From a virus: a stretch of DNA of 64,000 nt. The translations under genes and the position numbers were made by a program. Position 1 is the stretch's first letter. Every line of letters begins with the position of its first letter. This document shows positions 55,754-56,573 of this stretch, piece after piece. The stretch lies in IMG/VR virus record IMGVR_UViG_3300027668_000016, positions 1 to 64,000 of that record; one strand, written 5' to 3'. Below the pieces are notes generated by a model. The model did not search any database, was not told the origin of the DNA, and was given only the letters and a program-made list of their open reading frames with translations.

Positions 55754-55821
55754 GGTGGGGGTGAGAAGGCTAGCTGTGTCTGGCAATGCCAATTTCTGCT
55801 TCAATCTCATCCGTACCCACC
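55754..55821 (-). ncRNA. 68-nt folded element at the end of the tRNA-like cluster
   Basis: In the minus-strand RNA four stems are nested: GGTGGG/CCCACC, TGAGA/TCTCA, AGC/GCT and TGGC/GCCA with a 3-base loop. It is four bases from the neighbouring tRNA-Gly-like gene, the same spacing as within the cluster. It does not fold as a tRNA. It could be a processing hairpin, a decayed tRNA or a separate small RNA. Confidence 0.5.
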
Positions 55822-55825
55822 TTTG

Positions 55826-55897
55826 AGCGGGAGGTTGGAACTGCCCCAACTTCTTTGTACTGGAAGTACAACGAGTTTCTCTTAACTCTTCTCTCGC
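55826..55897 (-). tRNA. tRNA-Gly(UCC)-like gene 1 with non-canonical elbow
   Basis: 72 nt. The arms sit with the exact tRNA spacing 7-2-(4/8/4)-1-(5/7/5)-4-(5/7/5)-7-1. The acceptor GCGAGAG/CTCCCGC has one A-C mismatch. The anticodon arm TTGTA-CTTCCAG-TACAA gives UCC (reads GGA) with U33. Glycyl identity is kept: GCG/CGC at the acceptor top, C35-C36, discriminator U73. The D-loop TAAGAGAA lacks the GG pair, the T-loop is GGCAGTT instead of TTCRANN, and position 8 is A. Confidence 0.72.
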
Positions 55898-55902
55898 ATT
55901 TG

Positions 55903-55974
55903 AGCGGAGGGTTGGAATCGCACCAACACCTTCTATCTGGATGATAAATGTCTTACTACTAAGACTTCCCCCGC
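55903..55974 (-). tRNA. tRNA-Gly(UCC)-like gene 2, A33 variant
   Basis: 72 nt with the same arm geometry. Acceptor GCGGGGG/CCTCCGC, D-arm GTCT-TAGTAGTA-AGAC, anticodon arm TTTAT-CATCCAG-ATAGA, T-arm GTTGG-TGCGATT-CCAAC, U73. The anticodon is UCC but position 33 is A rather than the universal U. The T-loop begins TGC rather than TTC and the D-loop lacks GG. It may be charged with glycine yet decode poorly. Confidence 0.68.
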
Positions 55975-55980
55975 AATATA

Positions 55981-56038
55981 GAGAATGATAACCGGTAGCT
56001 TAAACTGAGCGGCCTTATCTCAATCTTTAATCATTCTC
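55981..56038 (-). ncRNA. 58-nt folded element inside the tRNA-like cluster
   Basis: Perfect 9-bp terminal stem GAGAATGAT/ATCATTCTC closes the element. Inside, TTGAG and CTCAG can pair around a 9-base loop. It is spaced five and six bases from the tRNA-Gly-like genes on each side. It may be a truncated (arm-lacking) tRNA or an RNA-processing signal. Confidence 0.5.
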
Positions 56039-56043
56039 CTTTG

Positions 56044-56115
56044 AGCGAAAGGTTGGAACTGCCCCAACTTCTCTATACTGGAAGTATAGCGGGTTTCTCT
56101 TAACCCCTCTCTCGC
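56044..56115 (-). tRNA. tRNA-Gly(UCC)-like gene 3 with non-canonical elbow
   Basis: 72 nt, fully paired acceptor GCGAGAG/CTTTCGC (one G-U), D-arm GGGT-TAAGAGAA-ACCC, anticodon arm CTATA-CTTCCAG-TATAG (UCC, U33), T-arm GTTGG-GGCAGTT-CCAAC, discriminator U. Its T-arm and D-loop are identical to gene 1, while the anticodon and D stems differ by compensating changes, so selection has kept the fold. A promoter-like element lies immediately upstream. Confidence 0.75.
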
Positions 56116-56121
56116 ATTTAT

Positions 56122-56157
56122 TATGTAAATATACAAATAAAAATTGATATAACCTAA
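56122..56157 (-). promoter_or_regulatory. Promoter-like element for the tRNA-like cluster
   Basis: Minus strand TTAGGTTATATCAATTT, then TTTGTATATTTACATAAT ending a few bases before the first tRNA-Gly-like gene, so transcription would start at or near its 5' end. Confidence 0.55.
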
Positions 56158-56478: not shown

Positions 56479-56501
56479 ATTTACTATTATTTTTACTATT
56501 G

Positions 56502-56573
56502 TAGCCCGTAAGAGAATCGAACTCTTATTTTACGGATGAAAACCGTATATCCTAACCGTTAGATGAACGGGCC
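56502..56573 (-). tRNA. tRNA-Glu(UUC)
   Basis: 72 nt. Acceptor GGCCCGT/ACGGGCT, anticodon stem TACGG/CCGTA with loop TTTTCAT (anticodon UUC), and canonical T-arm AGAG-TTCGATT-CTCT. The D-loop contains GG. CCA is not encoded. It supports translation of GAA codons. Its canonical form shows that the odd tRNA-Gly-like genes nearby are not a general feature of this phage's tRNAs. Confidence 0.93.

Follow-up and report, generated by a model that had tools for sequence, protein, structure and literature searches.

Transfer RNAs that serve purposes other than translation are known from a few bacteria. In Staphylococcus aureus, tRNA-Gly(UCC) has been linked to the synthesis of pentaglycine bridges (Giannouli 2009, as cited in PMC4052509 and PMC8007984), and the non-proteinogenic tRNA-Gly species, which are proposed to be kept from EF-Tu, carry UU or CU at positions 18-19 together with A49-U65 and A51-U63 (PMC4052509). 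Phage tRNAs are known to counter tRNA-targeting defences; such anti-defence tRNAs have mutated anticodon loops and are proposed to act in translation (PMC11555353, PMC10264068). Here we analysed a stretch of 64,000 nucleotides (positions 1 to 64,000 of the IMG/VR virus record IMGVR_UViG_3300027668_000016, referred to as the window), which contains three tandem tRNA-Gly-like genes, named Gly1, Gly2 and Gly3. Comparison with their relatives suggests that they belong to a virus-specific tRNA-Gly family which probably accepts glycine and does not decode. Like the staphylococcal tRNA-Gly(UCC), the family combines glycine identity and U73 with altered D- and T-loops, commonly has the UCC anticodon and occurs in several copies, and a similar exclusion from EF-Tu is proposed for it. 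Like the anti-defence tRNAs it is phage-encoded and mutated in the anticodon loop; however, it has relaxed the features of decoding and not those of charging.

The sequence-only reading of the window had recognised three 72-nt cloverleaves with GCG/CGC ends, C35-C36 and U73, and all of these features were found in the three genes, which lie on the minus strand (Table 1). Absence of the D-loop GG, the deviating T-loops, the A33 of Gly2 and the normal character of the neighbouring tRNA-Glu had also been described correctly. In all three genes position 8 is A and position 14 is U, C32 and G38 are able to pair, and G19 and C56 are retained. None of the three is reported by ARAGORN in the window. 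Infernal-type scoring, which had been suggested as a check, gave a divided outcome, as the Rfam tRNA model reports Gly2 (39 bits in both the short-stretch and genome searches) and misses Gly1 and Gly3.

Two patterns, one for the T-arm and a broader one, served to collect relatives from IMG/VR contigs, and prokaryote genomes were also scanned with the latter. The gene is carried by 46 IMG/VR contigs, mostly in two copies per record (range one to three), giving 48 distinct gap-free 72-mers with the window copies included. The 45 distinct further relatives in other phages, with stems kept by compensatory change, are far above chance expectation. Complete copies score 78.8-98.5 bits with the family model R1, while ordinary tRNAs remain at about 43 bits or below in the same search. 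Among 84,980 prokaryote genomes the broader pattern produced no true family match and a single hit, in Methylosinus (L055), which was rejected as chance since its stems do not pair. First-pattern matches on four contigs (L012, L014, L028 and L030) were set aside as normal tRNA-Met.

The family adopts the four-arm cloverleaf with paired stems that is expected of a canonical elongator tRNA-Gly. In the 48-sequence alignment 99.9% of the 1056 stem cells are paired, the sole unpaired cell being A4-C69 of Gly3, and 12 stem pairs have changed on both sides. Covariation is 0.531, whereas it falls to 0.196 on shuffling and to 0.14 or less when the structure is slid. The covariance check across related phages, proposed along with the original observation, thus reveals a conserved fold with abundant compensatory changes. 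The failure of ARAGORN to find Gly1-Gly3 and the single acceptor mismatch of Gly3 could be taken as signs of decaying tRNA genes. However, stems paired to this extent with compensatory changes indicate that the copies are neither decaying nor drifting, and the loops are invariant over 46 contigs. Degenerate drift, which had been named as a refuting outcome, is therefore itself refuted for the family, and decay is hardly credible.

Glycine identity in bacteria is determined by G1-C72, C2-G71, C35, C36 and U73 (PMC9976931), and this whole set for glycyl-tRNA synthetase (GlyRS) is present in every family copy. Even in a scan with the anticodon and acceptor left unconstrained, all 48 structure-passing sequences had C35-C36 and GCG/CGCU. 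G3-C70 is invariant alongside U73, a base that shields free Gly-tRNA from DTD (PMC6097841). Among the ordinary tRNAs of these phages 127 are without an encoded CCA and only 1 has it, and CCA addition is therefore expected for the family copies. It may be argued that the family is a structural or regulatory RNA which resembles tRNA-Gly and is never charged, given its invariant loops without a known role and the second structured RNA associated with it. However, the identity set including U73 and C35-C36 is kept in full though the search did not require it, and we consider this explanation improbable.

The anticodon loop, in which U33 is not kept and C32-G38 and A34 occur, is a stronger argument against decoding than the elbow. 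Position 33 is A in 26 of the 48 sequences, U in 20, and G and C in one each, so that U33 has been lost in 28. The pair 32-38 is C-G in 47 sequences and U-A in one. Since U-A at this position is common in ordinary tRNAs, C-G alone counts as odd. By comparison, U33 is present in all of 118 unique ordinary tRNAs from the same phages, U8 in 117 and C32-G38 in none. The family thus departs from the canonical elongator tRNA-Gly, which has U33 and a base other than G at position 38, and neither copy has U33 at ten loci with two complete copies. Position 34 is U in 38 sequences and A in 10; tRNA-Gly(ACC) has been reported as universally missing (PMC8007984).

The idea that the family fills a missing Gly(UCC) slot is weakened by the presence of an ordinary tRNA-Gly(UCC) alongside it in G036, G037 and G046, the last of which has both UCC and GCC species. 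In G036 the family pair is located about 27 kb away from the tRNA array, and in G028 and G043 the family is kept though Rfam finds no tRNA. A related explanation is that these are decoding tRNA-Gly which resist host tRNases through anticodon-loop and elbow mutations and replace cleaved tRNA-Gly. Anticodon-loop mutations are frequent in phage tRNAs (PMC10264068), the UCC anticodon is common in the family, and its A18/G55 elbow is found in apparently decoding phage tRNAs. However, the frequent loss of U33, the near-universal C32-G38 and the A34 of ten sequences, which are unlike the ordinary tRNAs, and the coexistence of ordinary Gly(UCC) make such a role quite improbable.

Analysis of the elbow indicates that it is rewired and not missing. 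A8, U14, A18 and G19 occur in 48 of 48 sequences and G55 and C56 are invariant; positions 54-58 read GGC(A/G)G in 47 of 48, with G/G or U/A at 54/58. This departs from the canonical U8-A14, G18-G19, T54, T55, C56 and A58: A18 with G55 replaces the G18-U55 pair, and G19-C56 is kept. The elbow had been described as lacking, of which the loss of GG and the T-loop change hold, whereas the loss of the elbow itself does not. Our comparison of elbows used loci caught by the pattern and is thus a biased sample, in which ordinary tRNAs for many amino acids have G55 with AG for GG in the D-loop, nearly all of them with U33. Apparently decoding tRNAs with A18 G19 and G55 C56 were seen at L145, L147, L149, L153, L154, L156, L158 and L161, with U/A or A/U at 54/58. 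The tRNA-Gly(CCC) of L154 has the same D- and T-loop solution as the family and scores 59 bits with its model, but it differs in having retained U33 and U8 and in the CC that follows its discriminator base; tRNAs with this kind of elbow read many codons and appear to be decoding, unlike the family. As the same elbow is found in apparently decoding phage tRNAs, the elbow alone says nothing against decoding, and the earlier argument from elbow to ribosome avoidance is not supported in the form given.

D- and T-loops appear to change together, as judged from the third copy in L018, an apparent counterpart of Gly2, which has GG and TTCAAAT where Gly2 has AG and TGCGATT. This copy (L018 5445-5516) has an ordinary GG/TTC elbow, an encoded CCA, an 8-nt anticodon loop (CAUUCCAG) and an intermediate R1 score of 59.8 bits. 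ARAGORN also fails to report two further tRNA-Gly-like genes (L144 3213-3284, with C33 and anticodon ACC, and L157 7000-7071), both of which have a T-stem mismatch.

The retention of glycine identity with the loss of decoding features suggests a use other than protein synthesis. The genes would be transcribed from a nearby host-type promoter, CCA would be added to the transcript, host GlyRS would charge it with glycine, and the charged RNA would be used poorly by the ribosome. The end use is the least certain step: free Gly-tRNA may be a bait or competitor for a host factor recognising tRNA-Gly or Gly-tRNA, or a dedicated glycine donor. Because these two uses are parts of the glycine-accepting, non-decoding reading, the probabilities given to the various readings do not sum to one. 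As a bait, it would occupy GlyRS itself, an acetyltransferase of Gly-tRNA resembling TacT, or a defence that cleaves tRNA. TacT specificity is set by U73 and G71 (PMC9976931), both invariant in the family; several divergent copies are present per phage, and the anti-defence phage tRNAs mentioned above offer a precedent. However, no such host system was identified in this analysis, the loops are conserved more strictly than a simple decoy requires, and an anticodon loop unlike that of ordinary tRNAs disfavours a bait for anticodon nucleases. We regard this use as possible, but rather doubtful.

As a donor in the staphylococcal style, the charged RNA would stay off EF-Tu and feed a host or unrecognised phage glycyl-transferase that tags cell wall, lipid, protein or DNA. 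Glycine identity with the anti-DTD base U73 and G3-C70 invariant (PMC6097841) and the relaxed decoding features are in line with it, and a host enzyme could exist as the FemAB and LPG_synthase_C families occur in a Bacteroidota control genome. However, searches of the phages for FemAB (24 records), LPG_synthase_C (24) and Acetyltransf_6 (32) found none, which leaves the earlier suggestion of peptidyl or lipid aminoacylation without a phage enzyme behind it and, for the phages searched, differs from the Fem-type system of S. aureus. The pairs that weaken EF-Tu binding also differ, the family having G-C at 49-65 and U-A at 51-63, with AG at 18-19. The proposed likeness to the staphylococcal tRNAs thus holds for glycine identity and altered loops and fails in these details. 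The family further differs in being phage-borne, in keeping G19/C56 with A18/G55, in dropping U33, and in having C32-G38, A34 and A8/U14. We consider the donor use unlikely.

Several points weigh against a glycine-accepting, non-decoding family. Judged from the apparently decoding tRNAs of other phages, the elbow change alone is compatible with decoding, and a title cited in PMC7609411 presents a tRNA-Pyl whose elbow is unusual as behaving like a normal elongator toward EF-Tu. With U33 in 20 and UCC in 38 of the 48 sequences, decoding by part of the copies is possible, and the acceptor and CC may be conserved for a partner different from GlyRS. The searches for FemAB, Acetyltransf_6 and LPG_synthase_C found no phage-encoded partner enzyme, and the neighbour genes of the family loci include no common gene of telling function and no partner. 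From the original interpretation, a conserved family with glycyl identity that is probably non-decoding stands, while the elbow argument and a phage-encoded enzyme do not.

Table 1. Features of the tRNA-Gly-like region of the window and relatives of its second structured RNA.
Feature	Position	Strand	Description
Gly1	56044..56115	-	tRNA-Gly-like gene, probably non-decoding; anticodon loop CUUCCAG; T-loop GGCAGTT; R1 93.1 bits
Gly2	55903..55974	-	tRNA-Gly-like gene; anticodon loop CAUCCAG (A33); D-loop UAGUAGUA; T-loop UGCGAUU; R1 78.8 bits
Gly3	55826..55897	-	tRNA-Gly-like gene; anticodon loop CUUCCAG; T-loop GGCAGTT; acceptor mismatch A4-C69; R1 92.7 bits
tRNA-Glu(UUC)	56501..56573	-	Ordinary tRNA, 59 bits; contrast case
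Candidate -7 promoter element	56126..56133	-	TATATTTA, 10 nt upstream of Gly1; Bacteroidota-type, TAnnTTTG-like
Second structured RNA	55980..56039	-	In the Gly1-Gly2 interval; conserved; has an outer stem, URAAG, the AUAARRCCG hairpin loop and a CCGG tail; may form a pseudoknot
GC-rich stem	55754..55825	-	GGTGGG..CCCACC with inner UUGAAG, 3' of Gly3
Second RNA relatives	L003 10173-10088; L018 5566-5642 and 5723-5840		Conserved motifs

Candidate promoters precede many of the leading family copies, where TTTG is followed after about 19 nt by TATATTTG or TATATTG, about 10-15 nt upstream of the gene. The candidate of Gly1 is without the -33 part, and the motif is clearer in relatives. The second structured RNA, 60-116 nt in length, separates the copies in about 20 phages; of 46 records searched with its model R2, 20 contain it, adjoining the tRNA-Gly-like genes. 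Its outer stem shows compensatory changes, and RNAalifold pairs CCG of the loop with CGG of the tail. An Rfam search of the relative in L003 gave no match. The GC-rich stem 3' of Gly3 is possibly terminator-like, another RNA or a decayed copy of the second RNA. A GOLLD RNA barely over the Rfam threshold was seen in L153 (7423-7054).

The neighbour genes encode small unknown proteins and, by eye, a P-loop kinase-like, a thioesterase-like and a methyltransferase-like protein. In the window, a small SET-domain protein is encoded at 55568-55239 (minus strand; Pfam E 2e-9), and a baseplate-region protein at 42105-41788 (minus strand) has a weak match to Pfam TssO (type VI secretion; E 0.001, below the cut-off).

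The full records examined have baseplate and other core genes in common, and the family therefore marks one phage clade. Its nearest named relatives share 43-51% identity in one baseplate protein, and blastn of the region and of one 72-mer against named phages gave no match. Three relatives at a greater distance, named or deposited (Mel-JY01, immuto and LR756508), are without a true family member, the scores in LR756508 (34-40 bits) being at the level of ordinary tRNAs. The hosts are probably Bacteroidota: a domain of type IX secretion is present, one of the nearest relatives is a Flavobacterium phage, and the promoter motifs are of the TAnnTTTG type. We found no description of a phage family of this kind in the open-access literature.

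It is conceivable, although we put this forward tentatively, that phages of a large clade, probably infecting Bacteroidota, rely on a dedicated virus-made pool of glycyl-tRNA outside translation, as bait or donor in a process so far undescribed for phages, together with a second structured RNA. Genes of this kind are overlooked by the standard finder ARAGORN. The separation of charging from decoding signals would offer a clean case for asking why phages carry tRNAs, and a conserved phage family of non-translational tRNA would point to a new role for charged tRNA, either in the chemistry of phages or in their conflict with hosts.
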